Shown here piece after piece: positions 7,001 to 40,500 of a stretch of DNA of 64,000 nt (the first letter of the stretch is position 1; every line of letters starts with the position of its first letter). The DNA comes from Isoetes taiwanensis (Eukaryota; Streptophyta; Lycopodiopsida; Isoetales; Isoetaceae). The stretch is from assembly GCA_021234155.1 (NCBI GenBank), contig JAJEKV010000049.1:8404036-8468035 (forward strand). Reading direction: 5' to 3'. The notes beneath the pieces were generated by a model. The model was not told the DNA's origin, did no database searches, and saw nothing but the letters and a program-made list of their open reading frames with translations. Both the position numbers and the translations under genes were made by a program.

Positions 7001-7090
7001 TTTGGAGTTTCAATTTTTTGAAACACATATTGTCAATTTTGCCATCTTCATCTTGAGTATTATCATCTTTTTTCTGCAATCATAACAGAT
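4004..7090. repeat. Tandem array unit, copy A (~3.1 kb)
   Basis: This is the first copy of a ~3.14-kb unit that recurs at 37596-40733, 40734-43881 and, truncated, at 43882-45222. Copy A begins at a run of 20 A (3990-4009), where the other copies have six A after a short lead segment. It ends at CATAACAGAT (7081-7090). In copies B and C the same AGAT is followed directly by ACGTCAGC, the start of the next unit. In copy A it is followed instead by the left terminus of the large element. Each copy contains an internal 33-bp direct duplication (copy A about 5928-5999). Copies A and D are almost identical; B and C differ mainly at CAG/CTG sites. Confidence 0.92.
4765..6641 (-). pseudogene. Exon-like segments of an unrecognised gene inside array copy A
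   Basis: Minus-strand segments look like exons. One, 6641-6540, reads KVILRIVLTALKHKNF and continues PGLPLDIEDMRRILKSI, followed by a GTAAGT donor (6539-6534). The same reading is kept in copies B and C with only a conservative change. A second, about 5696-5575, reads DKDLSEFITNAEDVTVAA and then IDHVPTSPQPGYTKDNQ, followed by GTTTAC. A third starts after an AG at 4843 and reads DPAAVCSWTETLEHLDLNG. Another possible donor (GTAAGT) lies just after about 6680. The unit is thus probably a repeated piece of a real intron-containing gene. I do not recognise the family, and no complete gene is present in the window. Confidence 0.45.
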
Positions 7091-7115
7091 AAGTCGTATT
7101 TAATTAAAGTGGGAC
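7091..7115 (+). repeat. Left terminal inverted repeat of the 30.5-kb element
   Basis: This 25-bp terminus pairs with 37571-37595 at 24 of 25 positions. It is preceded by the AGAT target duplication at 7087-7090. Its outer AAGTCG shares AGTCG with the half-site of the palindromes found at 8.0-9.3 kb and 31.9-33.0 kb. Confidence 0.9.
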
Positions 7116-7919
7116 TCATTCCATTCCCATTTTTTTTCGGAACCCGGTTAATTTACATAAAAAGTAGCACCCCGACCCGAAAACTATCCTTAATTCGAAT
7201 TTTTGAATAAAACTCAATCCGAAGCTTTGTCGCAGCTTTTCCCCGGTTTCATGAAGTCGAGAACAAAAACAATGCAACTGAAACAAAGGAAATTCATTAA
7301 AGTTTGAAACCAAAGATCTAGTTGAAAAAGAATTTTTATTAATAAATTGAACAGATACAATGTATTTTACATCGGACGCAGAGACCATGGTGGTCTTGCT
7401 GTCACTACAGTTACATCATCTTGGTAGGTGGTCCACCTTAGGGGATTAACTAGCTACGCTTCTTCACGCCGACCGTAAGCCTTTGGGGCAACCTTGAAGA
7501 GTGTGGAATGCCTCACGGGAGGTGCCTCTCGAGCTACCGGCCGACCTGTCCACCCACTTCTCCACTCGCCTCCCCGCACCTTTCATCGAATATGCTCCTT
7601 CCCCAACCTCCGCGGATGTTATGCAATGCTTGCAAGATGCTTTGAGCTTCCCGGACTTTCGCTTGTTCTTCGCCTGTTCTTTATCCCTGTGGTGTAGCGA
7701 GCAACCTCTCAATTCGCGAGCAACCTTGTCCCAAAGGCCGGGCAAGAGTGTAAGCGACCGGGATCCTGCCCGAATCGGTATTTCTTCCGCTTTGAGCCGG
7801 ATCTCAGGTCGCTGGAGCGGTCTCTCTGATGCCTGAGCGGGATCTGTGCTGGTGTCGGATCTGTGCCTAAACCACCTGGAGCAAGGAGAGTATGATTAAC
7901 AATTACGGTGCCATTAGTC

Positions 7920-8340
7920 AAAACGAAGAAAAGAATGTTGAAATCAAATTACAACGGAGAACATTCATTCCATACAACTGCATCCAATGACGTGGGAAGT
8001 AGTGTCTTTCTCGACTCGCGAGTCGAGAAAGGCCCATAAAAGTCAAAGTACAACCATTCTCATTAGAATATGGTTGCATCCAATCACACACGGAAGCATA
8101 CAAATGCTTTCGTCAACGAGACAACCAGCATGCCTTTCTCGACTCGCGAGTCGAGAAAGGCCCAGGAAACCCAATGTACAAGCATTATCATAATAGATTG
8201 TGGTCGCATCCAAATACACAATCAAACATACAAATGGTTTCATCAACAGGACAAGCATGCCTTTCTCGACTCGTGAGTCGAGAAAGGCATCGAAAACTCA
8301 ATATACAAGTATATTCATTACAAAATGGTCAATACATGTT
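7920..8340. repeat. ~126-bp tandem repeat carrying long perfect palindromes
   Basis: Three related units end in TCTCGACTCGCGAGTCGAGA palindromes. At 8006-8031 the palindrome is 26 bp and perfect. At 8132-8161 it is 30 bp and perfect. At 8257-8290 it is 34 bp with one central mismatch pair. The spacing is ~125 bp. Between palindromes each unit keeps a TGGTYGCATCCAAWNACACA-like stretch. This lies 0.9-1.2 kb from the left terminus of the element. A transposase or replication-protein binding array is possible; there is no direct proof. Confidence 0.75.
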
Positions 8341-8388
8341 CACGTTTGTTTACAATATTCACACAATTTGACTATCTGAAAGCAGAGG

Positions 8389-9454
8389 TCACTCTTCTTG
8401 TTCACCAAAATATTTGTCGTCCATAGCTTTCATGATCGCCTTGCTCTCTGGATCGGGTTCCGTGAGGCTCGGATAGTTACTAATCACATCGGCGACAAGA
8501 ATGGCAAAGAGGGATTCCGCCAAGACAGGACACAGTCCGAAGGACAACCACCTATCCGTCTCATATTCTTCAGGTCGATATGGCTTAGCAATGATTGTAT
8601 TTTGCGCTGTTATGCGCGGAGTCGCTCTATGATGAGCGTGTTGTGTTTGCCATAGTCCCGAATTGCTCATAAAACCCGCCCGACCTTTTCACCATTATAG
8701 GCTTCCCTTTGTGATGGCTGGATTGAGGTCCGACACATGCTTCGACTTTTTCGTTTCCCCCAAACGAACTTGAACTTCAAAACCGAAATGCCGAGAACAC
8801 CAAGAACATTGACAATATTTTTCTTTGCCATACAAGACCATATGCCCACTTCAATCCCCTTCGAGGCACCATTCAACAATTTCCTTAGCTCTAGGCCCTG
8901 GATACACTATTTTATGCTCTGTTTTGGTTGGGATCTGCGAGGTGTTAATCTCGGGACGCCTTTTGTCGTGGTATACCGCAGCTAATACCCATTGACGCCA
9001 AATATTACAAGCTTGGTGGGACCACCGGATCCCGGTTGGAGTTTGGCTCTGACCATATTTCCGGTTCATCGGGATCCAAATGCGGGATCATTATCTTCTC
9101 AGGTCCTTTCTGGCTGTTAGCAGTGTCTTGCTCTGGATTGTCTTTGTGAAGTGCATTCTCCTCCTCGCGACGTGAACCGCTGGTATCCAATGACAATGAT
9201 CCGGAGTCGTTGACATGGAATTCCCTGAAATGATGACATCCGGCCGAAGGAACGAGTTTTCGACTTCGCGAAATCGAGAATGAAAAGAAAAGGTATTGAA
9301 AGGAAACGAGTTTTCTCGACTCGCGAGTCGAGAAACACCGATAGAGCAAAGTAAACACAAGGCATCCAAAAGCAAAACACCACATGGTTTTTCCCATGGT
9401 TATGACTAGAAAACCATTCCATAAAACCAATGGGTTTTTGTGGGTTAATTTCAT
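8389..9454 (-). pseudogene. C-terminal exon block of an unrecognised element gene
   Basis: Reading from 9454 to 8389 gives a coherent but frameshifted protein. It begins with an acidic, polar stretch (SRREEENALHKDNPEQDTAN, then DPDEPEIWSEPNSNRDPVVP). It continues with KRRPEINTSQIPTKTEHKI and VYPGPRAKEIVEWCLEGD in another frame. It closes with PYRPEEYETDRWLSFGLCPV and ESKAIMKAMDDKYFGEQEE before a stop. No family was recognised. It has the same strand as the 27.6-26.7 kb and 30.1-29.1 kb blocks and may be the 3' part of the same gene, now separated by the CACTA-like insertion. The frameshifts lie in a stretch with CHG-type base errors, so disruption is uncertain. A palindrome (9312-9335) lies within this block. 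Confidence 0.4.
9312..9335. repeat. 24-bp perfect palindrome
   Basis: TTTCTCGACTCG is followed by its exact complement half. This is the same palindrome as in the 8.0-8.3 kb repeat. A degenerate relative lies just upstream at about 9256-9280. Confidence 0.8.
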
Positions 9455-9498
9455 TAAAAACCATATGAGGCTAAACTACTTGGTTTTCTTGTAAGGTT

Positions 9499-10770
9499 CA
9501 CTAGGGTGGTATTATGGCATGGAAATTGCTAACGGCTCCTTCCTAGTGTTTGTCAAAGTGGTATTTTATGTTGGTAAATAGATGTGATATATTATAAGGT
9601 TTTAAAGGTAGGGTTTCTCAATGTGGTATAATATAGTGGTTGTGGATGTGGTTTGATGTCGCGGCTCTATTCATGTGATTTTATGATGTGGTTAGTTATG
9701 GTGGTAAAATGTCGTGGCTAATTTTCATGGTAAATGCACACGGCTCGCGATGTGTTATATGCAGTAAATCACCATTATTTAATTAGTGGAAGTGTTTAGA
9801 TTATTGTATTAAAACACTATTATGTTTATCAAACTTAGATGTAATTGTTAGTTGTAGAAATGCATGGTTTTGTAGTACACTAGATTCATGGTTATCATTT
9901 ATAAACAAGTATTGCTATATAGTCTAAAGCATGTCAAACTACTAGACTAAACTATTAAAGATTGTGGATGGTTTCTTATGTATTGTAGTACTTATTAAGG
10001 TTGGTAATCCACTAATGGCTTTTAGTCTAAAGCGTTCCAACTATTGCATGGAAAACATGCATATCTTTACACTCAAGATGTACTCGTTAAGGCTGATAAA
10101 CCACTAATGTTTCTATTCTTAAGCTTCTTAAGTTTTTGCATATAAAGACGTGCAATCTTTCCACTAAATATCTAATAGTTTTTTCAATCATACACGCAGT
10201 GGTAAAGATGACAAATCATCAGAAACACTTTTAGTTTATGAATGAAAACCATAGCAATCTTATTAATTATCCATGTACATCTTTGTACAATGACTGCATA
10301 GTTTCTTAACATGTATGTATAGTGTTTATGATTAAATGCATTGCGTGCTTAACATATACCCCTAGTGCTTAAGACTATTTAACCATAAATGCTTTTCACA
10401 TCCAAGAAGTTTATATACCCCTAGTGCTTAAGACTATTTAACCATAAAAGCTTTTCACGTCAAAGCAGTTCATATACCCCTAGTGCTTAAGCCTATTTAA
10501 CCATAAATGCTTTTCACGTCCAAGCAATAAACAACTACTTAAAGTGTAGTGGTCTTTTGCATGGTTTCGTAACATTGTAGGGTTCTTAAACTGCTACTAC
10601 TTTTGGAGATGAAAGCATTTGTATTTAAATGTTTTTTCCTTGCGTGGTATTTACATGAACCACTACTACTTTTTGTTGAAAGTGGTATTTACTTTTTTTT
10701 CCTTGTGGTTTACTAGAGATATACATAAGTGCTTTGCCAAGTAAAGATAGATTGATTCAAAAACTAATGC
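9499..10770. repeat. Left subterminal repeat region, with a 3 x ~59-bp tandem repeat
   Basis: This AT-rich stretch has many GTGGT/TGGTTT motifs and no coding potential. It includes three near-identical ~59-bp units at about 10352-10526, each starting ATATACCCCTAGTGCTTAAG and running through ATTTAACCATAAA to TTTTCACGTC. It mirrors the inverted AACCAC-rich region at 25.9-26.67 kb. Confidence 0.6.
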
Positions 10771-10932
10771 ATACAAAGGCTTCAACAATAAATATGATCT
10801 ATATAATAAGAATGAACACAGTTACAAGTTTTAGAAAACCCTAAAACCTTAAAGCCGATAATGGTCTGTCTTAAGTTTTATCCAAAACACAATGCTGCGA
10901 TCAATCTATAAAGTGACAACATCTCAACGCAA

Positions 10933-13900
10933 TCAATCTTCAAACCTGACAGTAGAATGATTGATGTTGCCCGTTCTCCAACCCTCTTTGGAGATGCTCA
11001 TGACACTGCACTTCACGCATGCCATTGCAAAGAGCTTATATAAATCTGGACCCCTCACCTTAGATTTGAGTAGATTGGAAAATGCTTTCTTGTGTTTCTT
11101 ACTCAGTTCCTTGCTCAGTTTAAGAAGATCTACAACATTAACATCATCAATCTTCTCCTTCTGAAGTGCAATCATGCATATTGTCTTGTGTTTAAGGGGT
11201 GGCATGTTTTCCAATCTGCTCATCTGCTTTGAGTGTATAGTCTGCAACATGCAAATCACATGAAATATGGTCAAAACATATTTGCAAAAGATGTCATCTG
11301 AAATGGCACTCATTATTTTATTGAATGCTATCATGAGAAATACTAATTCAAAGAATAACATACCTGCAAATCATCGCCACTGCTGTCATCATTTTCTGAT
11401 TTTTCTTCCGTAACATAATTGTTTTCCTTTATTGTGTTCAAATCAGCTAGAATTTTCCTCGCTTCCATTTGAGGAACAGAACGAAGCCTTGATTTTGGCA
11501 ATCGCACGAACCATTGTTTCATGTCATTGCCAAGATCTCTAAGAATTTCAAGTTCACTTGTAGGGAATGGCATCGGCAGCTCCTCAGAACCCTCCTCAAG
11601 ATAATGAATATTCAAGGAAACATTACCTTCACCAATCGGTATTCCATGTACTAAACCAGCAGGATCTATCTCATGAATTAGCCCCAAACCAAATCGTTCA
11701 TCGCCATAAACCAAAGACACATACTCATTTTTATTATATTCTTGAAAAGCCTACAAATGAGAACTTGTTAGTAGGTGATGCTGATCAGCAACTTAAAGAG
11801 AGCATGGCAGATCAAGTCTTCAATTCACATATTTTATGTTCTGCTGTAATGTGTTCATATGCAAAGTCTGGGAAGTATTTCTATTCCACTCAAGTCTGAA
11901 CATCCATGGTAAGAGAGGCATCCATAGGTTTTGGAAGAAGCTTAAGATCCGGGGAAGGTCTCCAAGCAAAAGATCTTTTCATGGAGCTTGTACTTTAGAT
12001 ACTGGTCACGCAGTCTTGATATTTGGGGGAATGGTAGAAAGAGATAAGTTAGGGCTGGAATTTGATGCTGGTCTCTATTTGCTGCAGTTATGGTGTCACA
12101 TGTTTTGTGATTTTCCAGTTACTGAAGAAGGGGCTTTGGTGAAACTTCAGGAGCTCAATTTAGGGCACTGCCAAATTGAAACGCTGCCTGCATCCCTTGG
12201 AAGTGTTGGATGCTTATCTGCTTTGAAGAAATTGATCCTGATTGATCCATGCAAAAGGCAGGAAGTTTTCCAAGCCTGGAGCTGTTAGATGCATCAGCAT
12301 GTGCACTAGAAGGATTTCCAGATATAGAAGAGGGCGCCATGATCATGCTGAAGGTGTTGAAACTCAGCAGTTCCAAAATAAAGCAGCTTCCAAGGTGCTT
12401 TGGAGGGGCAAGATGCTTCACGTCCCTGCAGCACTTACATTTATCAGGGTGTCCACTCTCGCACCTCCCAGAGATTGAGAAGGGTGCTCTCCCCAGATTG
12501 TGTGAAATCCATGTGGAGAAGTATGAACATAATTCGGAGGAATGAAGCACAATGATAATAAGGCATTTCACAACGGGCTGACCTCTATTCATACCCAACC
12601 ATGCCGTTTTAAACAGAAAGATTCGCTAACAATCCTTCAAAGTACCTTTCTTATTTATCTCCCTCTCATTTAACCAGTTGCACATGCAGAAGCATTTCCC
12701 ACTAAGCCAATACATACAACCACACCCATGATGAGCATTTTAACAAGCCAGGGCTCTAATGGTAACATCGATAAATGACGACCTTACAAACAATACTACG
12801 GCTAAATATTTGCTGGAGAATATTTGCTGGAGAAGTGTGAACATACTTCTAAGAAAGGAAGCACAGTGATAATAAAGCATTTCCCAAACCTTTATGAGCA
12901 AATCGTACATAAACCAAGATATGTTCTATGCAAGGAGGTCTGAAAATCTGAACTTACACATCTGCTAAAAGGCAAGCAGTGTCTTTTGATCCTGGATGAC
13001 GTTTGGGACAAGTCAGTCATAGAATGGCTGAATTATGACACCACAATTCTAATCACCACACGCAATCCTGAGATTTTAGGACTGGGGACACAAGACGTTG
13101 AAATGGGTATGCTTTCAGAAGAGCATAGCTAGAATGTGTTCCTTCATCATGCATTTCAATCCAGTCCTATTCAGTTTCAAGATGATAATGCTATTCATAA
13201 AGATGTCAAGAGTATTGCTGCAAGGATGGCCAAGAAATGCAAGGGCCTTCCCCTCGCTTTAAAGTTGGCAGGAAGTGCTATGACTAGAAAATCTGAGAAA
13301 TCGCAATGGGAACAGGCATTGAGTGGTCTGCAAGATGCCCAATTGGTTCAAGAAGAAGCCCTGTATGGCCACCTAAAAATCAGTTACAACGAACTGGGAA
13401 GTTTGGAGAAGCATATTGGTCAAGGTAGAAAGCTCCAAGAATGCTTCCTGTACTTGGGTGCATTTCGCAAATATGAGAAAATAGACATCTTTGATTTGGC
13501 AAAATGATGGGCAGGGGAGAGGCTGCTCAAAGCAGGAAATGATCTGATGATTGAAACATACTTTGTTCTTGGTATTCTCATAGCTTCTTCTTTGTTTGAT
13601 GTGGTGGGAGAGTATGCATGTCGGGTTCATGATGTGCTCAGGGACATGACATATCATATTTTGAGGAAAGAACGCGTGAGGCAAGAGGTATTTCATGTTG
13701 AAAAAATTCAGGATGACATCAGTTTGCAAGTGGCAAAGAGAATCTAAATAGGCAAGTCCATTCCTGTACTTCATGTTAATTCTCCAATTGTGGCACCTAA
13801 TCTAAACATTCTGCTGCTTGAACGCTGTGGTGAAATCCATCAGAAATTTCTCTTGAACTTCCCATCCCTCCAAATGTTGAGCTTAATATCTACAGGAATA

Positions 13901-15504
13901 AAAGCTCTTCCAGATAGTCTAGGTCTGTTAAAGTCACTTGTTATCTTGGATATTGTAGAATGCAACTCACTAGCTTCTATTCCAGAATCCTTGGCAGAAT
14001 TGATTGTTGGCAACAGTGTTCTTATATATTAGCTTTGGTATCTATTATCTAAGTATTGTTGCCACAGCTAGGACATCCACTGTAAAGATGCGTGAACACA
14101 GCTTCTTATTTGAGAGAATCTTGCAAAAGTTTCAGATAGCATGGAAATAAGTGGGAAAAAATACATACTGAACTCACGCTACCATCACTTCGTCGCTTTT
14201 TTGCAGCTACCATCGTGTCAGCATTTCCAAAGTCTTCAAAATCATCATCGTCGTTGTCCAAAGATTCAAATCGCTTGTCCATTGCTGAAATTGTCAAGGA
14301 CTCTGGCCATTCTAATTCATCCTAATTACGACAAAGAAACAGCCAATGAAAATCCAAGATAAATGTCAAATATAAAGAAGAATTGAGTTAAGAGTGTGCA
14401 TACATCTATGGCAAGTTCCTCAATCCTCTTTTGTGCAGCAGAATTCCCGTTTTCAAATGGCAAGTAGGCATCCTTTTCACTATCAATAATGCTTTTGATT
14501 TTAATCTGAACCAAAGCATAATTTTCTCCATCCACCTGATTTTGCACTTTTGCAGTTCCTACTACAACCTCCTTACTTGCAAACAATGATGGGCGCTTCA
14601 AACCAGCAAAAAAGAGATCATTGAAGAACTTCAAGTGACTAATTTTCAAAGTTCTTGATGAAGCTAGCAATATAACAGAATTATCCTTCTCGTAATTCCT
14701 TTCGTATTCAAACTTTTTGGCACACATACTCAATCGTTTTTTCTGCCCACCAATCATCAAGTTGATTGTTTCACGAATAAACTTTTCTGGAACAGAATAA
14801 GAAATAGTAGGCCAGCATATGGGCTTCAAAATTCCACTTCCCATGAGATGTTGAATGAGTTTATCTCTTCGCGCAATCCACTTTTTATTTTCCTCATATG
14901 GCCTAAACTGTGGCAATGTAAAAACAGGAAATGTAGACAGCACAGCATTGTGAATTTCCCTATGATTGTCAACCATTTGCAGCCACTATGAACGATGTCC
15001 TATTTTTTTTAAAGCCAACCTGCCATTCTTTACATCTGGCCCCCTGCTCAATACTGTAAAAACATGGGCCGCTTTTGGGACTTTATCAAAACGTACTTGA
15101 CCATAACTTTCAAGACGACCACTATCACGTCTCATATCCCTCTGTTCATCACTTCTTATCTCCCGCTCAACAACTACATCAAGATTCAGAGATGATTGAT
15201 GGCTGGACAAGCCACCTTTGGAGACAGTAAGAGCTGATCCATTTGCAACAGCAGCACGAGAAGCATTCTCCTTGATTTCGTCACGCAAGCCCACAATCCC
15301 AACAGCCAACCCTTTTATAAAACCTAATTCAAGCCAATCATTGAGCTGGAAATTCAGAAAACTCATCCCATATACCTGCTTCTCAACAACTAACGCCTCC
15401 CCACTCTCCACGGGAGTAGAAGAGAAGCGACTAAAAATATAAGTAGCCACATCTTTGGGCTGCCACAATGATACTTCAGAGAGCGTTGGTAAACTTTCAG
15501 CCAT
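10933..15504 (-). CDS. SAM-domain protein with a DUF8039-like region, CACTA-associated
   Basis: The model has four exons on the minus strand: 15504-14404, 14321-14178, 11750-11364 and 11241-10933. Donors are GTATGC, GTGAGT and GTATGT; acceptors are TAG, TAG and CAG; all introns are phase 0. The N-terminus starts MAESLPTLSEVSLWQPKDVA, and residues ~10-75 fit a SAM fold (W...DVATYIFSRF...LELGFIKGLAVGIVGLRDEI). Exon 2 is acidic then basic (DNDDDDFEDFG, AAKKRRSDGS), like a nuclear localisation region. Exon 3 (GLGLIHEIDPAGLVHGIPIG, then PMPFPTSELEILRDLG) resembles the DUF8039-type domain of plant CACTA-associated proteins; this is inference. One in-frame TAG lies at about 14987 (HRS*WLQ), so the copy may be dead. 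The 2.4-kb intron 2 holds antisense kelch/LRR/NB-ARC relics. The likely role is a TnpA-like DNA-binding partner of the 21-24 kb transposase. Confidence 0.55.
11950..12545 (+). pseudogene. Kelch-repeat fragment followed by LRR fragment
   Basis: About 11950-12090 reads RSPSKRSFHGACTLDTGHAV then LIFGGMVERDK, a kelch-type blade (G-x-C...LIFGG). After a pyrimidine-rich AG (about 12119) the frame turns into plant NLR-style leucine-rich repeats: EEGALVKLQELNLGHCQIET LP, then SLGSVGCLSALKKLIL. A +1 frameshift near 12245 leads to further LRRs ending at 12545 (SFPSLELLDAS, LKVLKLSSSKIKQLP, LQHLHLSGCPLSHLP). The two pieces come from unrelated gene types, so this is a composite of captured fragments. It lies inside an intron of the minus-strand SAM gene and on the opposite strand. 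Confidence 0.65.
12968..14032 (+). pseudogene. NB-ARC-LRR (NLR immune receptor) fragment
   Basis: One reading frame shows the NB-ARC motifs in order: kinase-2 (CLLILDDVWD), RNBS-B (TTILITTRN), GLPL (CKGLPLALKLAG), RNBS-D-like (CFLYLGAFRKYEKI) and MHD (CRVHDVLRDM). Two to three LRRs follow (PNLNILLLERCGEIH, LPDSLGLLKSLVILDI). The P-loop and any TIR, CC or kinase N-terminus are missing. Three in-frame stops (TAG 13130, TGA 13505, TAA 13745) and no frameshift break the frame. The first two fit decayed tryptophan codons. The family normally acts as cytosolic ATP-switch immune receptors; this copy cannot. The gene order (LRR fragment upstream, NB-ARC downstream) shows rearrangement rather than a simple dead gene. 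Confidence 0.82.
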
Positions 15505-16195
15505 GGAGATAGTTGAGACCTGGAATAATGTAAAGCTAAATCAATATAAAATGGCTTGTTGATTAAATATCTAGAGCTGGCTGGTGCAGTGTTAATGCAG
15601 TCATAAAAAGCCAAGAGTTTATGCAGGTCCGATTAATTCATCAAGTAATAATTCAGCAAGTAGTCAATTCTGTCAAAGTACATAACATGAATTATAGAAT
15701 CCGTTATTGAGTGCATGGAAACTCAAAAACAAGAAAGTAGATACAGCATCACACAATAGTTTGCCTATAATCAGTTATTTACAAAGCTTTTGCTTTAGAA
15801 AACTATCACTCCAAATGCATAATTTAAGATATAAATTCATTGTCATAACCATTTCCAAAATGCATATTCATGATAGGGGTAGACCTATCTGCCAATTTAA
15901 TCTTCCTATACATAATACATAATCCTTTACATTCACATACCTGAATCAGAAGCAGTAAAGGAATTTCACAAGAATTTTGCAGCTCCTCAGCTCAATCGGC
16001 TTCTTTGGTATTAAACACAATATTTTCTACTGCAGAATCAGACAATGCAAATAGGTACCTGAGCATGAGATCCTTCTTGAGATTTTTTCGGGGCCAGCAA
16101 TCAGCTCGCCGGCCCCCCCTTCCCTGCCAGCAGCCATCATTGATGCATCCCGGCTGAAACGTCCTCTGCCATCACCACCGGATTAGGTCTCGGGT
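15505..16195. other. No gene seen
   Basis: AT-rich sequence upstream of the minus-strand SAM gene, probably its promoter and 5' leader. Short ORFs here have no recognisable features. A GC-richer patch starts near 16090. Confidence 0.5.
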
Positions 16196-16430
16196 TTTTT
16201 CTCTAACGTCGTGGTAAGACGTTAAACTGCCATACCCAAGGTCACGGGTTCAACGCCTCGTTGTGAAAGTGGCCATGCAATGTAAAGTTGGTGGGGGAAG
16301 GACCCACTTCAGCAATGTAAAGTGGTGGGGGCAGGACCCATCTGGGTGTGTTGTAAAGTGTCACATGTCCGATAGGACGCTGCCTTGTGGCGTGACGTTA
16401 AAATCTCTTCTTCTTCTTCTTCTTCTTTTA
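16196..16430 (+). repeat. SINE-like, tRNA-related unit
   Basis: An A-box-like TGGTAAGACG (16212-16221) and a B-box-like GGTTCAACGCC (16247-16257) are spaced ~35 bp apart, as in polymerase III type 2 promoters. The unit ends ~150 bp later in a (TTC)n tract (about 16406-16427), a usual SINE-type tail. No target duplication was found by eye, so retroposition is not proven. Confidence 0.4.
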
Positions 16431-16529
16431 GGGGCATTTACTATGCTGGCCTGCCACCTGGGTTTTTTTAGGTTGCTGAGTTGGAATTTTTCGCCACACA
16501 AATATTGTTTAGTCGTCGTGCACCGTGGA

Positions 16530-16865
16530 TCTCAAAAGGTGGCTGAGCTTGGGTTCATTGTAGTGCAGATTGATGAGATGGGTACCTCAGATCGGTCCAA
16601 GGCGTTCCACAATATATGCGCAAAAAATATAGGTGATGCTAGACTCCCAGATCGCATTCTTTGGATGAAAGTTGCAGCATTAGAACATCCATATATGGAC
16701 CTTGATAGGATAGGAATTTATGGTATTTCTGCAGGAGGGCAAAGTGCTCTTGGTGCATTGCTAATGTATCCTGATTTTTACAAGGTGGTTGTTTCAGCAT
16801 GTGGTTGCCATGACAATCGGATGGATAAAATGTGGTGGAATGAGTTATGCATCTGCTCGGAGTAG
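16530..16865 (+). pseudogene. Fragment of an S9-family peptidase (DPP IV/prolyl oligopeptidase type)
   Basis: The frame reads [20 protein letters not shown], then [20 protein letters not shown]. The nucleophile elbow [17 protein letters not shown] follows (G-x-S-x-G-G, catalytic Ser). Next comes [20 protein letters not shown] and WNE, and then a stop. This matches the C-terminal alpha/beta-hydrolase domain of S9 peptidases around the active serine. The rest of that domain, including the Asp and His of the triad, and the beta-propeller are missing. It is a captured exon-size piece inside the CACTA-like element. There is no sign of frameshift within the piece, so capture may be fairly recent or the piece may be spliced into a longer transcript. 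Confidence 0.75.
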
Positions 16866-17864
16866 AACCACGCAATGATTGTAAGCACATTTAAAGCTAT
16901 GGAAATATGGGACCAAAGGAATTCTGTAAAGGAGAAGAACTGAATGGCTATTGGATTAATGAAGTTTTGTGTAAGATACAACATTTGAACAATATTAAGG
17001 CATCAGAAATTTTTGCTCTATGGAAATAACTAGTTTGCCAACTCAAGTTAAAGAGCATAAAGGAGCATCACAAATAACTCGACTTCAAGGGCGTAAAGGA
17101 GCATCACAAGTTTGCAGTAAACATGATGACTACTTGGTCAAACATAATTGATGCTTTTGTGAAGGTGAAGGATGATTAAGTGGATCGTTTGTCTCTGTAT
17201 CCTTTGTGCATCAACAGATCCATGTGATATTGATAGGCATAAATCTGTATGTGCGGTATGGTGGCATGTCTTACACACCCATGAAAAACTAGAAACTGGA
17301 GTCAAATAGTGCAACTCAAATGGAGAATAAGCAAAAAACAAATGGGTGCATAGAACTATAAATGAGTGCATCGAATGAGCAAAAAACAAATGGGTGCTCT
17401 AAGCATAGGTGTCGATTCGAACTTAGGAATCATGTCATAATGAGGGGCAATCTGAATAATTGGGGTGTTCTTTCCAAGCCTTAGGGTATGCAGTTTTAAA
17501 CAAATTTGATTCAAGCTATGTACAACGTGCAGATGCTTTGCTAGGATTTCTTGCATCTCTTTTCAAGTTGTATAATGAATAGCATATGCATTTGAAAGTT
17601 CAGTTAGGCCTTCTGTTTGGAGAGTATGCAGTGTTGAGGTACTTGTGAGAAAAGCATTTGAATGAATCTAAATGAAGACATGTTAAGGCTTCTATACTAA
17701 TATGCTAGAAATCTATATGTGTTCAACTTTGAGGGTAGAGGCAACTGTGTTAAGCTTTGAGAAATCTACTCATGTGTTAAGCTTTGTGGATATACTTGTT
17801 TTGCTTGGTAATAATGATGGCATATATAGTTGCGTTACTACTTTTGCTTTAAAATCTGTGGTGC
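16866..17864. other. No gene seen
   Basis: AT-rich sequence following the S9 fragment. It contains a short imperfect direct duplication (AAGGAGCATCACAA, about 17058-17110) and AAAAACAAATGGGTGC twice (about 17335-17398). No coding evidence. Confidence 0.5.
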
Positions 17865-19979
17865 TGCCCTAGGGTAACTATGGCCTTCTAGAAGCAACCG
17901 CATAGTCGAAATTTCGTGAAGTGCCTTTCTGGCATGGCCAGTGGCACCTTGTCCAGTTTGCGCAAGGGGCAACTTTGGAATAGGTGTCTCGGGAGGGTTT
18001 TTTTTTCTCTCTCTCTTGGGTTCTCTCTTCAGACCCTTGTGGGAATCCTGCACTTTGTAGGCAGGGAAGGCTACCGAAACCTAAACCCTACATTTTTAGT
18101 AGGGTTTTGCTTTTGGGGCACCAAACCTCTCCATCTGCTAATCCCACTGTCCAAATGGTAGCTCGTGTTCCTTGAATCATCTTCAAAAAAGAAAAAATGG
18201 ACATCCACTGCACAGGCGTACCAACCCCCAAATTACCCCCTTTCCGACGTAGGGCCACGAGGTGGATATATGGTGTGTTCCTCTAATTCGGCAGCTATAC
18301 CGAGCTTGGAATGCAGTTTTGGCTTCATGCACGAGTCCAAGGCAACAATTTACTCTAGGGACCAGCTGTTGTGACCAACATAGCCAAACTCAACTTGCTA
18401 TATGCAACTAGTCGAAGCTTTAAACGATGCACTCCTTGCACAGAGTGCGTCGCCGGATCTTAATTAAAGGTAGCATGCACAAGGAAGTAGGGGCAGTTGA
18501 TCGGGGCAAGGCTCTTCATGCATGTGCCCTAGGGTAACTATGGCCTTCTAGAAGCAACCGCATAGTCGAAATTTCGTGAAGTGCCTTTCTGGCATGGCCA
18601 GTGGCACCTTGTCCAGTTTGTCGTGAAGCATCGCAAGGGGCAACTTTGGAAATAGGTGCCTCGGGAGGGTTTTTTTTTTCTTTCTCTTGGGTTCTCTCTT
18701 CAGACAGGCAAGTGCTCGACCACTGTGTAGGCAGGGAAGGCTACCGAAACCTAAACCCTACATTTTTAGTAGGGTTTTGGTTTTGGGGCACCAAAACCTC
18801 TCCATCTGCTAATCCCACCGTCCAAATGGTAGCTCGTGTTCCCTGAATCATCTCCAAAAAGAAAAAATGGACATCCACTGCACAGGCGTACCAACCCCCA
18901 AATTACCCCTTTAGGCGTAGGGCCACGAGGTGGATATATGGCGTGTTCCTCCAATTCGGTAGCTATACCGAGCTTGGAATGCAGTTTTGGCTTCATGCAC
19001 GAGTCCAAGGCAACCAATTTACTCTAGGGACCAGCTGTTGTGACCAACATAGCCAAACTCAACTTGCTATATGCAACTAGTCGAAGCTTTAAACCGATGC
19101 ACTCCTTTGCTTAGAAGTAGTCGTCGCCTCTTAATTAAAGGTAGCATGCACAAGGAAGTAGGGGCAGTTGATCGGGGCAAGGCTCTTCATGCATGTGCCC
19201 TAGGGTAACTATGGCCTTCTAGAAGCAACCGCATAGTCGAAATTTCGTGAAGTGCCTTTCTGGCATGGCCAGTGGCACCTTGTCCAGTTTGTCGTGAAGC
19301 ATCGCAAGGGGCAACTTTGGAAATAGGTGCCTCGGGAGGGTTTTTTTTTCTCTTGGGTTCTCTCTTCAGACCCTTGTGTAAACCCTGAGGCAAGTGCTCG
19401 ACCACTGTGTAGGCAGGGAAGGCTACCGAAACCTAAACCCTACATTTTTAGTAGGGTTTTGGTTTTGGGGCACCAAAACCTCTCCATCTGCTAATCCCAC
19501 CATCCAAATGGTAGCTCGTGTTCCCTGAATCATCTCCAAAAAGAAAAAATGGACATCCACTGCACAGGCGTACCAATCCCCAAATTACCCCCTTTCCGAC
19601 GTAGGGCCACGAGGTGGATATATGGCGTGTTCCTCCAATTCGGCAGCTATACCGAGCTTGGAATGCAGTTTTGGCTTCATGCACGAGTCCAAGGCAACCA
19701 ATTTACTCTAGCACAGTTTCTGCATTTTATATGATTAGCACAGTTTGTCGTGGGGCTGATTGTTTGTTTTCCCTCGAAAACCCTTCAAGGGGTTTTTTAA
19801 TCCACGAGTCCCATAGACCGATTGGTCTCCGTGGACGATAAAAGTAACTTCCTTCCTTCCTTCCTTCTAGGGACCAGCTGTTGTGACCAACATAGCCAAA
19901 CTCAACTTGTGGAAACCCTTGCAGGCAAGCGCTCGACCACTCTGTAGGCAGGGAAGGCAACCGAAACCTAAACCCTACA
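17865..19979. repeat. Three tandem copies of a ~665-bp repeat
   Basis: Copies start with TGCCCTAGGGTAACTATGG at 17865, 18535 and 19196, giving unit lengths of 670 and 661 bp. Each contains CCGAAACCTAAACCCTACAT with a short inverted TAGGGTTTTG partner, i.e. plant-telomere-like AAACCCTA text. Copy 3 is interrupted at 19711 by a short insertion and then ends in a rearranged piece (19867-19979) that repeats the GCTCGACCACT...AAACCCTAC part. Copies differ by small indels. No protein is implied. Confidence 0.88.
19712..19865. mobile_element. ~155-bp insertion in repeat copy 3
   Basis: Copies 1 and 2 read TTTACTCTAGGGACCAGC without a break. In copy 3 this site is split after TCTAG (19707-19711) and resumes with TCTAG (19866-19870), so a 5-bp target duplication is evident. 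The insert contains AAACCCTTCAAGGGGTTTTTT (a small hairpin) and ends in a (TTCC)n tract at about 19850-19865. It could be a SINE-like or other short element; the class is not determined. Confidence 0.6.
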
Positions 19980-20324
19980 GTATCCAATGATCTGTATATT
20001 TTTTTGCATTCAAGTACATAGACTCCATAGTACAACTCAAGGTACATGTCAAACTAGGTTTTGCTGTTTGCTACAAATGGCTTCAGATGGTTGTAATTTG
20101 ACTTCACGGTTTAAGCTTGAGCAATTTTCACGGACTCAAGTCCGTCACTTGATCTTATATACATGCAAGCTTATTCTCTACATTACTACTTTAGCTCTAT
20201 ATGTTTCACTAATTTGTGTTATACGGACTCAAGTCTGTGGTTCAAGCATAGGGTCCAATTACTCTAGAATTAGTCTATATGTTGTATTAGATACATATAG
20301 ACACTAACTCCATATATAATGCAA

Positions 20325-20840
20325 GAACCCAATATAATGCAAGAGCCTTACTAGCTATAAATAATAGAAAGCTATGCAATTGTACTCAAAGGTGCCTTAA
20401 TACAAGTTCCATGAAGGAAAAAATTGCTTAAGCTATAAGGTGCCCAAGGGGTAAACGATTTTATTTGGGCCATAGAGTATACGGGGTGTAAAAAATTAAC
20501 TTAGGTAGACCAAGTAACTATGTTACAGTCAGAGCCCCAAGTTTGAATTATGAAAACGGTATACAAAGATAGTGATTTAGGGTAAAATACCACCTCCAAT
20601 AACCTATGCTACCCTTTGTATACCCTTTTCAGAATTCAAACTTGGGGCTCTGACTGTAACATAGTTACTTGGTCTACCTAAGTTTAATTTTTTACACCCC
20701 GTATACTCGTTTACCCCTTGGGCACCTTATAGCTCAAGCAATTTTTTCCTTTATGGAACTCGTATTAAGGCATCTTTGAGTACAATTGCATAGCTTTCTA
20801 TTATTTATAGCTAGTAAGGCTCTTGCATTATATTGGGTTC
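20325..20840. repeat. Long foldback (inverted repeat) element
   Basis: The left arm 20325-20568 is complementary to the right arm ~20613-20840 almost throughout. GAACCCAATATAATGCAAGA pairs with the right end TATTGGGTTC, and ACAGTCAGAGCCCCAAG pairs with CTTGGGGCTCTGACTGT. The left arm has ~18 extra bases near 20460-20478. The loop is ~45 bp. RNA across it would fold into a ~230-bp hairpin, a substrate for Dicer-like enzymes. A foldback or MITE-type element, or an inverted duplication, would explain it. Confidence 0.88.
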
Positions 20841-21286
20841 CAGAACTACCCCTTAGGCAACATGAGGGCATATTTTCCTTGAATTAATATGCATTATTTA
20901 AGCTGTGTATCAAACATTGACCATTGGTATTTTACAATTATTTCGCTATCATTGAGCCACTGACATGGACATGAACTGGGCCTGCATCAGTATTGATATT
21001 GCCATTCAAACTGAGTTCCATCTCTTCACGGGATGTCCGGTGCATCCTATGCAAATATCATGTAAAAGCCAGTAATAACAGTGGCACAAACATTAGCTAG
21101 TTTACATTGAGGGAGGCATATCTTGATGAAGCAGATATCAAGAAGATGCTCCTACTACTGCATCTTCCAATGGTTTCTGCAATACCCTGTATTTTTCCAA
21201 TGATCTGTGTCTTTTTTTGCATTCGAAATAATGCTCTCAAGCAGACAATTTATGCAATGATCAATACGATGAGACGAGGATTGCAA

Positions 21287-24188: not shown

Positions 24189-24237
24189 TTCACATACTCA
24201 AAAAAGCATGTGGGCGACACATGTGCTGCACAGGTGC

Positions 24238-24306
24238 TGACTGCCCTTCATTGCCCTTCAAACTGCCCTTCATTGCCCTTCCATAGCCCTTCATTGCCCT
24301 TCAAAA
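24238..24306. repeat. Minisatellite of TGCCCTTCAT units
   Basis: Six or seven imperfect repeats of a CTGCCCTTCATTGCCCTTCA-like unit directly after the transposase stop codon. Confidence 0.85.
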
Positions 24307-26671: not shown

Positions 26672-26714
26672 GTTATTTATAATGGTTAAATTTTTGGGCG
26701 CCTTGTGAAACTCA

Positions 26715-31619: not shown

Positions 31620-33240
31620 TCAAATGCATCCTCTTGTAGTTAGTCGGAGGGGCCTCCACCCAGTCCGAGCCCCTCCACTTCGCAATATTCGAGGAAGATG
31701 GTTCAAGGAGAGTGGCTCGCATGTGCTAGAGGCACTTTGGGACTAAAAAAGGGAGAATACAAAGTGCAGAGGTTGTAGAGAATGCAAGCCTTGGCTTCCT
31801 CTTCGTGGTTTCCCTGTGGTTGTTGTAGAGGCCTCCCACCCACCGGAGCCCCTCCCTTCGCAATATTCGACGATGGTTCGAAGGAGAGTGACTCGACCGA
31901 AGTCGAGGCCACCGCTACCATACACGTGAGAATTGGTCGGCCAAGGGATTCTCGACTCATGAAGTCGAGAATGCGACCGCTCGCTGGTCGCTACATTCTC
32001 GACTCGCAAGTCGAATGTCTTGGCCATCCGTAACTCCTGGTTAGTACACACCTGAGTGCCGTTGGTTAAGGCATTCCCACTAGCGAGGCGAATGCGCACA
32101 AAGAAGTTTTATGGTTTCCCAAAGGTTAGGTTGCGAGGCCTCCACCCAGTCCGAGCCCCTCCCCTTCGCGATATTCGGGTCCGAAGATGGTTCGGGCGAG
32201 AGTGGCTCGACCGGTAGAGGCCACCGCCAACCACAATACGTGAGAATTGGTGGTTAGAGGATTCTCGACTAGCGAGTCGAGAATGCGACCGTTGGTTTTG
32301 TTCATTTCGACTGCAAGTCGAAATGCCTTAGCCATCGGTAACTCCGGATGGTACACATGGAGTGCCGGTTGGGTAAGGCATTTTCACCTCGAGCCAAGAA
32401 TGCATACGACAAGAAGCTCGTGGTTTCCCCCTGGGTTGCTAAGAGTTGGCTGTGAGACAAAGCCAAAACAACTTCCCTTCGCAATGTCCGAGGAAGATAG
32501 AAGGAGAGTTGTTAAGATCGCCCCGCAGCCAGCTCTAGAGTGCACTAGAGCTGGCCGCTTTTCTCGACTCGCCGGCACCTCTCGGTTGGTCGTAGAGGGC
32601 CTCCACTCAATCGAGCCCATCCCCTTCGCAATATTCGACGAAGATGGTTCGAAGGAGACGGTCTTTGATTGGGTAGAGGCCACTAAGACCACACACAGGA
32701 GAATTGGGTTGCTAAGAGTTGGCCTGCAGACAATGAAAACCACTTCCCTTCGCAATGTCCGAGGAAGATAGAAGGAGAGTGGTTAAGACCGTCTGCAGCC
32801 AGCCTCTAGAGTGCACTAGAGCTCGGCTCGACTCCACGAAGTCGAAAGCCGCCAGCACCTTCCTGCGTGGTTGTCGCCGAGGCCTCCACCCAGTCGGAGC
32901 CAGTCCTCTTCGCAATATTCGATGAGCATGGTTCGGCGGAGAGTGGCTCGACCGGTGGAGGCACCCGCGACCGACACAAAGGGCCATTGGCGACATTCTC
33001 GACTCCGCAGTCGAGAAGGGTCCGCAACAGTTTCTAAAGAATGTGAAGACATTGGGTAGTCATGGAAATCCCGATCGCGAAGTTGAGAATCCCTCAACCG
33101 CCAACAAAGTGTACACTCCCTCTTCTCGCCAAGGAAAAGAAGTTCTCGACTTCGCTTAAGAGTCGAAAGAAGGCCCTATTTCCCTCGGATCTGCTATGTT
33201 GAAGTATTCTCAACTCGCCACTCCATTCTCGCATGTCTCC
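31620..33240. repeat. GC-rich tandem repeat with TTCTCGACT palindromes
   Basis: About five diverged units share GGCCTCCACCCAGTCCGAGC, CTTCGCAATATTCG, GAAGATGGTTCG and GAGAGTGGCTCGACCGGTAG, followed by a palindrome. Palindromes with a TTCTCGACT-N4/5-AGTCGAGAA core lie at 31948-31972, 32261-32284 and 32996-33017. Broken ones lie near 31995-32018, 32565 and 33142. The core is the same as in the 8.0-9.3 kb repeats at the other end of the element. Unit length is ~250-320 bp and irregular. The stretch is likely affected by base-calling errors, so the true units may be more regular. Confidence 0.7.
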
Positions 33241-34468: not shown

Positions 34469-37389
34469 ATGAGTAAAATGGAGCCAAGGAAGTCCAGCAG
34501 AGGCCATTGCCCTAGGCTCCAATGGAGGAAGATGGGTTGCCTTTTGTTGCACCCTTGCAACCAGACGGTATTTGCAGAGGGCATAATAACTGCAGTTGAT
34601 CCATTTGATAGTGTGAATGATGAGAGGCTGGGAGATGAACATCTTGGAGTTGGCATTGTGAAGCTTCTTATCGAAGTTGATACAATCATGTCCCGTGGAA
34701 GCTCTAGTGATTGCATTGTGTGCTCGTGGTCTTTGGAGTCCCAAGCTCGGGATTGAGATGGCCAATTAGATATATTACACACAAGAATGGTGATACTCTA
34801 GAATGCCCTACTGAACTACACACCCCAAGGCCCACCCAGGGCCATGTGGAAGATTTGGTGGTCGATGAGCATCCTTTGATCACAAGGAAGAGACGCTATG
34901 TCTTTCATAAAAGGCAGCCAAGGGTGCCCAAGAGGCCTAGAAGTGACAAATATTTAGAAAGGATGGAAAGTATGGCACCAACCAAAAGAAAACCCGGAGG
35001 CAATTAGGGGACAAGAGTGTTGCAACCTAGATTGCACGTCAAGCATTAAATGTGGATGACCTCGCGGATAAGGTCCCAATACATTGGACAGCTTCAAAAA
35101 GATAGGATTAATTTCATTTACTCCTTGTGTAGGAATTCCAGCTATGATGAAAACACAGGACGGCTACTATATCAATTGAGGGGCATGAAGGTATGTATGA
35201 GAGCATTGAGATGGATTCTTGGGGTGAGCAAGTCTTCATTTTACAGATACTGGGAGTAGGTTAGAAAAGGGCACAGTTTGTTCCAACATGGTAATGCACT
35301 CACTTTGAAACCTAGAGCAAATACTCTAAAGGCCATTGCAGTCTTCGAGAGCTTTGTGAGATACATGTCTCAATCTATGCCCCACAAGTCGAAGGTGAAC
35401 GAGCACGGTGTGCGAGTGGTGCAAAGAGTGCTGCCACAACACTATATCCAAAAGGAGTGCCTTAAGGAGGTCAACTCCATCCTGGAAACTACTAGAGGTA
35501 GGCCTCTTTCTCAATCACATTTCAGCAAGTTATGGAGCACTCACTTCTCAGACGTGAGTGTCCTACAACACATGCCATTCTCAAAGTGCAACACTTGCAT
35601 TCAACTCAAGGATACACTTGCATCAACTGCAATAGAGAAAGAAAGAATGGCAATTAGGGAGCAATTTGCAGATCACCAAAGGGACCAAATATCATGTAGA
35701 CAAATGTATTGGCGATTGGAGGGAGAACATTTTCCGAGATGCAGCCAGGACAAATTTTTGTGCATAATTCATGATAAGATGGACCAACACAAGACTTTCT
35801 TGCCAAAGCTAGATCCTTTACCCAAAGCGTTGTCAAAACGCCGATTCGATGAAAGTAAGTCCAAAAGGTGTATTAACACATGGTCATGGAACCGAACATA
35901 TGGTCATTTTGTGCTTGATCTATGGAGAGATGATCCATCCAAACTTCCATGTGAGCTCTATTTTCAAGTGCCTGAGAACACTAGAGAAAGGATCGATAGA
36001 AGGGAGGAGGTATTCCCCTTCAGCACCCATTTTTGAGGCTTTGATGGATGATCAACCGCTTTGTTACCAAAGGCAGATAAAAAAGCTCACATCCAAGGTG
36101 TCTAGTGAATCAAGGAGGACTTGGGATGATTTCCCCTTACTTGAGAAATCACCGCCGAGGAGCTATGTGTTCCCGGGCTTGGACAACCTGTTGGAAAGAA
36201 AACAAGAATAGATGGATGTTTGGGGCAATGTCATACTTGGACGCTAAAGTGGGAGTATTCAAAGTTGTGAAAGTGGGATTCATGATGGTTGGGCATACGC
36301 ATGATGATATAGATGGATTCTTTGGAACTTTCTCCACCAAGCTCAAGAGAGAAAACGTGACCACTCTCCCTGAACTAATGGATGTGTTTGAGAGCTGCAT
36401 TGACCCCAACCCAATGGCTTTCTTGATGGATGAGGTTGCAGATTGGAAATCATTTGTAGAAGGATACTTGCTAGATGGTAAGGACCGGTTGACAGACACA
36501 CAAAAGCCACTTCGGTTCAAGTTTTGGGTTAGGGATGGAATACCAATCATGCAATATAAGTGGAGACCAGGTGACAAGTTGTGGATGCCCTGCACAAGGT
36601 ATCGAAGTTGTGGCAAAGGGGTGCTGCTTTGGTGAAGTTCTCATTCCTAAAGGGCAGCCAAAACCACTACCTCCCTTCAAGACAGGTCAAAGACTCTAGC
36701 CAATTGGTGAAGGGCATCAAGGATTACATAACGCACACTGGGATGATGTTCGAAATGGAAAGCACACCTCCACTCTTAAGAAAAATCAAATGGACTCCCT
36801 AATCAAGTACTGGGAGAAAGTTGTGACATGCTTAGAAACTGAATGACCATGTGGGAGGGAGCTAAGAGACGGGTTCTTGCCAGAGTCAAGATGGGAGGGT
36901 TCTCAAGGTGCAAGCACGTCTAAGAATGCTCACTTGGGTCCCAACAAGGGTTCCAAGTGGTTTGTGGGAAGTAAGGCCTCAAAGCCGAAGTGGTTTGATC
37001 TTCCTGAGTGGGATCCCTTTGAGGACATCAAGGAAGGATACTTTGTGCTAGTAAGGCCTGATGATGAGGACTGTCCAATATGGTTAGGGGTGGCACTCTC
37101 TGATGTAACCACCACTATGCCTGATGGAGAGGAGTTGCGTCCTGGATTCCAAATTCAATATTGGGAGCCCATTGGGAGACACAAGAAGGGCAACTTGAAG
37201 GAGCAATACACTGACTGCTGGGAGAAGAAGTGGAGGGCAATTATCTTGAGACCCTCAAAGGAGGGAATTGGTGGAGTGTGTGGTATGGTCATATCCAAGT
37301 TCTCACATTGCAAAAGACAACACACACAAGATCCCAAGAAGGGAGATGGACAAGGCCATGAGCAACCTCCATGCTATATCATTGTATGA
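34469..37389 (+). pseudogene. DUF7869-type transposase-like gene, damaged
   Basis: The N-terminus (MSKMEPRKSSRGHCPRLQWR; then FAEGIITAVDPFDSVNDERL GDEHLGVGIVKLL) looks like a DUF8039-type region. The central part has FKLWSTHFSDV-like text, CNTCIQLKDTL, CIIHDKMDQHKTFLPKL and VLTHGHGT. It also has LDLWRDDPSKLPCELYF and, after a one-base insertion, LDN + CWKENKNRW and VKVGFMMVGHTHDDIDGFFG. These last motifs are the hallmark of DUF7869 proteins (RNase H-like fold, transposase-like). Candidate catalytic acids are Asp in HDKMDQ, Asp in LDN and Asp in HTHDDID; this is inference. The C-terminus (GYFVLVRPDDEDCPIWLGVA, FQIQYWEPIG) ends at 37389, ~180 bp from the right terminus. In-frame stops at 35005 and 35257 and at least three frameshifts (about 34740, 35860-36040, 36190) break it. 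Best candidate mobiliser of the 30.5-kb element. Confidence 0.7.
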
Positions 37390-37570
37390 GGGTACATAAT
37401 ATTGAGAAGTTTTAAAACTTTCTCAACTAGTGGTTTGTAAAATTTATGAGGAAAACAAGTAACCCATTTCTATGTGTGTCATGTGTAATTCTATTCAAGC
37501 AATCAATTCAGAAATTTCTTTTACGGTGTGTGAGTCCCATTTTCAGTCCGAGTCCCAAAATTCAAGATTT

Positions 37571-37595
37571 GTCCCACTTTAATTAAATGCGACTT
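37571..37595 (-). repeat. Right terminal inverted repeat of the 30.5-kb element
   Basis: Reverse complement of 7091-7115 with one mismatch. AGAT (37596-37599) follows, then ACGTCAGC, which is the array continuation. GAGTCCC motifs at about 37531 and 37547 mirror GGGACTC at 7111-7117. Confidence 0.9.
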
Positions 37596-40500
37596 AGATA
37601 CGTCAGCAACACCTAAGCTCAGTCCAAGGTCCTAGGTTAAACCTAGAAACTGGAGTAACATTAAAAAACCCTTTTGGTCTGTTTGCCTAAAAACAACCAG
37701 ACTTTAAGCCTATTAGCCCGTATGGATCTAATAGCCTTCAACTTGCAGTCCTAGATATGACTAGGTGTATGTCATATCATAGGCCTTGAACATAGCTATG
37801 AAATTACACAAGATTCCAAGATAAGAAAAACATTTTGTTATTTGACCAACAACTTACGATTTAAAATGATAATACAGCAAGAATCATAACAATTATTGTA
37901 GCATAAACCATCAAGGTTCTCATATATGTTAGAGCTATTAGCAAAAGCTAATGTATGGACAGATTTGAATCACTATTTCCAAGTAGAACTTAGCGAAAGG
38001 CATTTTATTATTTCATATAGTCAAGTAGAAGTAGAAAAAGCAACAAACCTTGCTCAACATAGCTAAAATAACCCACATAGCTTTGGGCCATAAAACCCCA
38101 CCAACATAAAGATAGAGTTTAACGACTTCACCAAATATTCTCTCGCAGCAAATTGAGCAATAATTTTGCTCGGTTTCAAACCATAACATCACCATATGCG
38201 GGGATAAGTTCGGTTACCCGCATGTCAACCATTCAAGAATTAGCCCGAGAAGGGTAATCTCAAAAGGACAAACAGTAAGAAAGAACCTATCCGCTTAACG
38301 CCTTTCAACATATTTTAAGCAATGTAAAAATAAAAAGTACATTAATAAACAATAGGCAATCAGAACTATCCCATTATGGGGTGACAAATAACGCGAGGGC
38401 ATATATCAAGTTAAGACAAACCACATTGCCTTGAGTTATTTTACAAATACCATTTAAATCCGGATGTTCAAGTGTTTACGTCCACCTAACGTATCCGGCC
38501 AGCCAGGATCTTTAGGATAGAAAGTAAGCGGTTAACATAAGAAAGATAGATAACTACCCTTGCAACTCTATAAAGGATAACATTAAAAACAAATGACTAA
38601 TGTCTTAAGTCCTATGCTCACACACAAGGGTGATGTTAGGTCTACATAAAGTGTAACATGCACAAAATAATACAACGAAATCGAGCAATTGGACAATATC
38701 TTTACACAAATTTCTCATAACTATGTAGGGCAAATGTGTGGCAATAGAACAACGACCTAGCTATCTATCTTCCGCAAATATGTACAGGAAGATTATTACT
38801 AGAAATGAAAGCGCAATACCATAGAGAAGGTGGATTTGAAATATTAAATCATTTGCATTATGCAAATAACTTGGCTTACGAAAATAATCAAGAACAAGAA
38901 GAAAGATATAGCTAGCTTAAAGACATAATATATGAAGACCTGGGGAACATGTTGAGAAGATTTTAAGACCCGGGTCCATAAAAAAGTCGAAAAGCAGATT
39001 AACACTTAGACCAACAATCACCCAAACAGTCACACGCTGCAGAAAGCGAGAGATCGTAATGATGTATATAATGTAAAGGAACTGAAATTATCCAAGAAGA
39101 CTGATATAATAAACTATCAAGTAATCTATACATAAAACACATAGAAGTTTATGAAAATGGGTTAGAGAAAACTCTAATTACTAGAATCGAAAGGATAAGA
39201 AATGGACACATATATTAACATTTGTGGTAAACCTGATTGTCCTTCGTATCCCAGCTGTGGACTAGTTGGAACATGGTCTATTGCAAAGAATGATTACATC
39301 CTCAAAGATTTGTGATAAATTACGAAGATCCTTATCGGTTCTAGAACTTCCTTGCCGCTTATAGATTCGAATTTTAATGCATGTCCAAGGTGGCTTTGAT
39401 GAAGTTCCCTTTACGTCTACCCATAGACATAGCTCAAAGCCCGAGTCTATCACGGTAGACAAGCTCGATTACACACAAATGAGAGTAAAAATATGAACTG
39501 AAAGGAAACCTTAAATAGAAGTAATTGGAAGCAGCAATTCGGAGAACACATCCAAATGGGTCCATGTAGCAATCAGATATCTGAGCAAGCGGCATAAGAT
39601 AAGGCATTCCGGCCATGTAATCTTGCAAGCGGCATAAGATAAGGCATTCCAGCCATTAAACCCTAAAGGTTACAGTTCACAATTTTACATATGACCTAAG
39701 AAAAATGAATGAAAAATGTTTAGGGGGTTGGATCTTTTCCTCAAGCACTATTATCCTTAGCAATATGATCAAAATGTTGAAGATTGACACCCATGAAAGA
39801 ATATATGGTCAATCATATTATAGGCTCTAATCGCAAACCAAAGATACAAGACCAAGTTTTATAATCAATGCTAAGCAGGATAGAGGTAAACAGGAAGTAA
39901 AGAAATATCACCCATATGTTAATATGTTAATGTACAAGAAATAACCATAAGCCATAATTTTGAGCAGATAACTAACTCCATAATTAGCATAAGCTAAGGA
40001 TATATTCCTTTAGAAAATAATATATACATAAAAAAATCCTTCCTCCTACCTCAGATTAGGAGGTCCCTATATTCAGTCACTAAGAAATGACTAAAACATA
40101 AGTTGGAACAGGGAGAGTAGGGCCCTGTTGCAACACAGGGACCCTACCCAACCCATAAAAATCTACTCTAGAGTTTATAATGACTGTACTTACGTGATGG
40201 ATTTGAGAATTCTCCTCATGTCTTCTATGTCGAGAGGTAGTCCAGGAAAGGTTTTGTGTTTCAATGCTGTGAGTACAATCCTGAGAATGACCTTCCTTAA
40301 GAAACAATTATTGCGAAAGGCATTGCTCAACTTACTTAAGTCTTCTCGTCATGTCTTTTATGTCAAAAGTAAGATTAGGACATTCAAAACTTTGCCAAAG
40401 ATGGAAACATGACAACGTTTGGCAAAAACAATGTCATTTGAGTAAATTCTTTTGTAGATAACCTCCTACCAAAGGAGAATTCTTCTCATAAAACCTTTGG

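Follow-up and report, generated by a model that had tools for sequence, protein, structure and literature searches.

A high-copy DNA transposon family in Isoetes taiwanensis with 4-bp target duplications and a DUF7869 gene predicted to encode its transposase

We analysed a 64,000-nucleotide stretch of the Isoetes taiwanensis genome (the window; contig JAJEKV010000049.1 of assembly GCA_021234155.1, positions 8,404,036 to 8,468,035), in which a 30.5-kb element with inverted termini interrupts a tandem array. The element, at 7091-37595, is very probably a copy of a high-copy family of cut-and-paste DNA transposons using a DDE-type transposase encoded by their own DUF7869 gene. The window copy is composite, with a nested insertion holding most of its supposed cargo, and as a giant transposon it is an ordinary case of a transposon within a transposon. 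If borne out, this reading would assign DUF7869 a concrete function open to testing, that of a DDE transposase for which defined ends, a target duplication and candidate binding sites are available. The analysis also identifies in the Isoetes genome a family whose exact termini number more than two thousand.

The element interrupts a tandem array between two of its units

The left terminal inverted repeat, AAGTCGTATTTAATTAAAGTGGGAC, occupies positions 7091-7115 on the plus strand and matches the right repeat (37571-37595, minus strand) at 24 of 25 positions, and the target duplication AGAT flanks the pair at 7087-7090 and 37596-37599 (no strand assigned), as the original prediction had described. 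Allowing up to 3 mismatches, the terminus word did not recur in the window beyond the two termini and was absent from 100 dinucleotide shuffles. The array has a unit of about 3.14 kb, represented by units A (4004-7086), B (37596-40733), C (40734-43881) and a partial D (43882-45222), and the element sits exactly between A and B. At the uninterrupted B-C and C-D junctions CATAACAGAT runs directly into ACGTCAGC, whereas at the interrupted junction CATAACAGAT is followed by the element, from AAGTCG to CGACTT, and then by AGATACGTCAGC. Comparison of these junctions indicated that AGAT was duplicated and that the window holds two empty paralogous sites, with uninterrupted AGAT at 40734-40737 and 43882-43885 on the plus strand; the predicted empty site was thus recovered, the A-B junction without the element being equal to B-C and C-D. 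In the window copy, microhomology would also allow shifted ends and a duplication of 5 bp, AGATA; other copies favour 4 bp (24 of 27 pairs).

The termini define a high-copy family

We searched an assembly of 1,658,258,908 bases in 1,110 contigs; these figures match those given for Isoetes taiwanensis in part of PMC8566536 (1658.30 Mb; 204 scaffolds and 909 unplaced contigs). The exact 25-bp terminus, with one base left free, occurred 2,261 times (1,123 forward and 1,138 reverse; control, 0); the lack of other copies, which would have refuted the original prediction, was thus not borne out. With the left 210 bases as query, 1,614 first-look candidates were returned, and all 40 that were scored matched over the full length at 93-100%. 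When copies were compared to fix the edges, the edge at AAGTCG was common to all eight fetched loci, the window's included, while the flanking DNA differed in each.

Pairing of the termini among the first 100 places listed yielded 34 adjacent facing pairs, 30 of them less than 40 kb apart, with 12 at 3.5-5.8 kb, 15 at 10.7-14.8 kb and 3 at 23.5-26.7 kb. Perfect 4-bp target duplications, the identical flanking words for which the original prediction had proposed to search, bounded 35 of the 40 copies examined. Among ten long copies, three of them examined by their ends only, the duplications were AGAT (window), CTTA (C946), AATA (C1050), AGCT (C907), GTAT (C1100), CTAT (C1052), CTTT (a second C1050 copy) and ATAT (C1076); three of the 30 pairs, copies of about 4 kb, had ACAG, AAAG and TGGT, and the other 27 pairs had a perfect duplication in 24 cases, one of which lies inside an A run and two of which have identical flanks and probably stem from a duplication. 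Mismatched pairings, used as a control, agreed in 5 of 702. The duplicated words are A/T-rich and follow no fixed motif.

Most long copies measure about 11-13 kb (C946, 12.0 kb; C1100, 12.3 kb; C1052, the second C1050 copy and C1076, 12.1-12.2 kb), and the outer element of the window, taken without its nested insertion, is roughly 13 kb long. The three copies of about 4 kb resemble the C1100 and window copies at the ends only. The other C1050 copy (7682243-7700425), 18.2 kb long, contains an extra 5.8-kb stretch at element positions ~9076-14916 that is not in the other elements compared and is probably another nested insertion. We also observed two copies, C128:91575-106371 and C128:130592-141805, with identical 10-bp flanks and duplication, which probably represent a segmental duplication.

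The DUF7869 gene is a candidate transposase gene

The original prediction had suspected the DUF7869-type gene at one end of the element, and this hunch proved a good one. The gene, at 34514-37381 on the plus strand, matches full-length DUF7869 proteins and contains the Pfam domain PF25273 at ~36189-36560 (E 1.7e-28). It lies at the right end in six of the seven elements compared; the question whether all full copies carry it is thus answered in the affirmative for these six, while C1074 retains only 0.33 kb of it. In Pfam terms DUF7869 still counts as a domain of unknown function, with 676 proteins spread over charophytes, liverworts, lycophytes, molluscs, echinoderms, lancelets, corals and sponges. 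A first-look search of the Isoetes genome gave 9,901 loose PF25273 candidates; all 150 that were scored lay above the Pfam cut-off, about 128 of them were without internal stops, and open frames reached 987 residues. The same search of 14 control genomes found none. PF25273 thus looks extremely abundant in this lycophyte, and DUF7869 genes are present in more diverged families as well.

Structure modelling and a Foldseek search pointed to an RNase H-like fold for the DUF7869 domain, as in DDE transposases and integrases, and the family has invariant aspartates located where DDE enzymes carry theirs. The modelled catalytic domain resembles those of the mariner transposase Mos1 and retroviral integrase, whereas the 4-bp duplication differs from the TA of Mos1 and no sequence match to solved structures was obtained up to E 10. 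We conclude that the protein is probably the DDE-type transposase of the outer element, its catalytic activity being predicted from the model.

The protein might instead be a passenger, with the element moved by another enzyme such as the tnp2-like protein whose gene also lies within the 30.5 kb, and two other DUF7869 loci that showed no ends would fit this account. We consider it unlikely: only two of the seven elements yielded the tnp2-like gene, inside the nested element, as against six with DUF7869 at the right end; the modelled fold is of the DDE recombinase type; and comparison of the DUF7869 and tnp2-like profiles gave no match.

Several observations nevertheless weigh against a DUF7869-driven family. 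The DUF7869 frame in the window is split by frameshifts and stops, part of which may be assembly error because the array units differ by small indels; its substitutions had no third-position excess (72/84/81 over the codon positions, p 0.42) and a synonymous excess that was mild (0.29 versus 0.20 expected). Foldseek TM-scores were low, most rows not exceeding about 0.3 for the model as a whole, Argonaute proteins, which also have an RNase H-like domain, ranked closely behind Mos1, and a first, larger model gave weak structural matches only. One of 12 members checked for motifs was without the first aspartate motif and another without the GHTHxDID motif. The two other long-frame loci in the same genome, read out to 10 kb, had neither clear terminal repeats nor clear duplications. 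As for the duplications, C1074 and C1041 (two of the ten long copies) had no perfect 4-bp duplication, and among the 27 pairs one had a 5-bp duplication (TGTAC) and two had none, one of these two having two right-type ends. Finally, the mobility of the family is read from sequence.

The two long-frame loci (L100:7784-8521 and L101:1059-2465) have in common a second gene (TQWYVTRGFA...), divergent from the DUF7869 gene, for which no convincing Pfam match was obtained.

Inner repeat sites cluster near both ends

On either strand, AGTCGAGAA occurs nine times in the left 2.4 kb and nine times in the right 6.2 kb of the element, and is absent from its interior and from the flanks. The left cluster (7255-9334) includes perfect palindromes, TTTCTCGACTCGCGAGTCGAGAAA, at 8007, 8135 and 9312 and one with a single mismatch at 8262; the right cluster (31949-33151), located 4.4-5.6 kb in from the right end and upstream of the DUF7869 gene, has degenerate palindromes at 31995, 32261 and 32995. 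With up to 6 mismatches allowed, the palindrome occurred seven times versus none in 60 shuffles. All six other elements had sites about as far from the left end as in the window copy, five of them (not C1074) had the right cluster, and the three copies of about 4 kb retain 6, 10 and 7 sites. From this distribution we infer that the AGTCGAGAA sites are putative transposase binding sites.

The left end also carries the broken remains of a gene for a HAD phosphatase of the NIF/FCP1 type (approximately 8500-9090, minus strand; 90.7% DNA identity to copy C1100). Its counterpart at the left end of C1100, likewise on the minus strand, is an open frame in which the phosphatase domain was recognised (PF03031, E 2.7e-10). 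Its substitutions had no codon-position bias (70/87/66), and it may be either a captured host gene or a gene of the element.

In the mechanism that we propose, the transposase would bind the terminal repeats and the inner AGTCGAGAA sites, cut both ends and join these to the two strands of the target, staggered by 4 bp; the same enzyme could mobilise the copies of about 4 kb that have ends but no gene. The outer element inserted at the boundary of array units A and B, and after (or before) this event it received a 17.35-kb CACTA-type element, which brought it to 30.5 kb.

The outer element probably belongs to the Sola superfamily

Three features of Sola recur in the outer element, namely a 4-bp duplication (35 of 40 copies), inverted termini (25 bp, 24 of 25 identical) and a predicted DDD/E-type transposase (from the modelled fold). 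Its superfamily is therefore probably Sola, most likely Sola-1; against this placement, the match is by described features and not by transposase sequence. Passages of PMC10741241 and PMC9033089 describe Sola elements with 4-bp duplications, a DDD transposase and terminal inverted repeats of 11-1124 bp, reported in a moss; the claim that a 4-bp duplication fits none of the usual plant superfamilies is therefore not supported. The outer element is like Sola1-1_Ec32, from a 21.5-kb Sola-1 family of the brown alga Ectocarpus that has an additional gene in the opposite orientation, in its 4-bp duplication, a terminal repeat length within the range, its DDD/E-type transposase and the possibility of large size, as far as excerpts of these sources describe them (PMC10741241, PMC9033089, PMC12477816, PMC3627910). 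Unlike Sola1-1_Ec32, it has inner palindromes and the remnant of a NIF-type phosphatase gene; a methyltransferase domain such as that of Sola1-1_Ec32 was not seen in the scanned half of the six frames.

The text available from PMC12477816 describes nested insertions and broken transposases as common in Ectocarpus giant elements. The composite shares with these KDZ, EnSpm and Sola-1 giants its large size and unrelated nested transposons, and their often broken transposase genes, thought there to be moved in trans; in the same account fixation of the nested insertions across copies is the general pattern, whereas here both tested junctions are unique (PMC12477816).

Other superfamilies fared less well. 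Assignment of the outer element to CACTA (En/Spm) was ruled out by its AAGTCG ends and 4-bp duplications, and its transposase profile does not match either; clusters of subterminal repeats are also a habit of CACTA elements. Duplications are 8 bp long in hAT, and no 8-bp duplication was found in the 27 pairs, by which hAT was rejected. Mutator, with duplications of 7-12 bp according to part of PMC10741241, was rejected on 7- or 8-bp duplications in none of the 27 pairs, as counted up to 8 bp. We tentatively entertain, as appreciably less probable than a Sola affiliation, that DUF7869 transposases form a superfamily of their own, distinct from Sola and characterised by duplications of 4 bp together with inner binding sites that are palindromic.

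A nested CACTA-type element occupies the middle of the window copy

Elements of the CACTA superfamily have CACTA/CACTG-type (CAC-type) ends and 3-bp duplications. Comparison of copies and reading of the ends identified positions 9356-26707 (plus strand) as a nested CACTA-type element of 17,352 bp with ends CACAAGGC...GCCTTGTG, flanked by the 3-bp duplication AAA (9353-9355 and 26708-26710). In C1100, the left 2.26 kb runs straight into the equivalent of window-element position 19618, where the window carries 17.35 kb extra. This middle is missing from five of the seven elements compared along their length, and C1052, the second C1050 copy and C1076, examined by their ends alone, cannot hold it because they are 12.1-12.2 kb long.

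Like CACTA (En/Spm), the nested element has CACAA...TTGTG ends and a 3-bp duplication, and it carries a candidate transposase gene that is tnp2-like. The gene (21274-24173, plus strand) is broken and matches Pfam Transposase_21 weakly (E 7.9e-5, 22.4 bits, under the 28.6 cut-off); it has homologues in the fern Adiantum nelumboides, and five of six homologues likewise match weakly under the cut-off, one not at all. The nested element further contains a prolyl oligopeptidase gene fragment (PF00326; 16218-16865, plus strand; E 4e-23), a weak leucine-rich-repeat match, and a fragment at 11421-11744 (minus strand) that by sequence comparison resembles the N-terminal part of some DUF7869-family proteins.

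The original prediction had taken the 30.5 kb for a single giant cargo-bearing element; on this view the middle, with its peptidase, leucine-rich-repeat and tnp2-like genes, would be the own travelling cargo of one autonomous element. Copy C907 (29.4 kb) might seem to bear this out, having a related middle of about 17 kb in the same orientation and nearly the same place. That middle, however, lies about 20 bp from the window's insertion point and has its own AAA duplication with CAC-type ends, and an exact search for each left junction returned one genome occurrence for the window and one for C907, so the two are read as independent insertions, with no sign of spread for either composite. Together with the own CACAAGGC ends and AAA duplications of the middle, and its absence from most elements compared, this makes a single giant element very improbable. 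Both CACTA-type elements of about 17 kb (window 9356; C907 ~1264245) entered at AAA followed by C, and the near-coincident, same-orientation insertions suggest a target preference.

That the 7.09-kb and 37.6-kb junctions are false joins is scarcely credible, for although the assembly is Nanopore-based and Illumina-polished (PMC8566536, in part) and small indels cluster between array units, the left edge is identical with unrelated flanks in eight of eight loci, the duplications of 35 of 40 copies match and both end regions have AGTCGAGAA sites in common. By eye, small differences that fall in clusters, frequently at CAG/CTG-like words, set units B and C apart from A and D (window 4004-7086 and 37596-45222); they resemble errors of long-read polishing more than they do divergence.

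Within the nested element, we also observed two nested near-perfect hairpins at 20325-20840 (arms of 139 nt and 79 nt, 95-96%), which adjoin tandem repeats of about 670 bp at 17865-19979.
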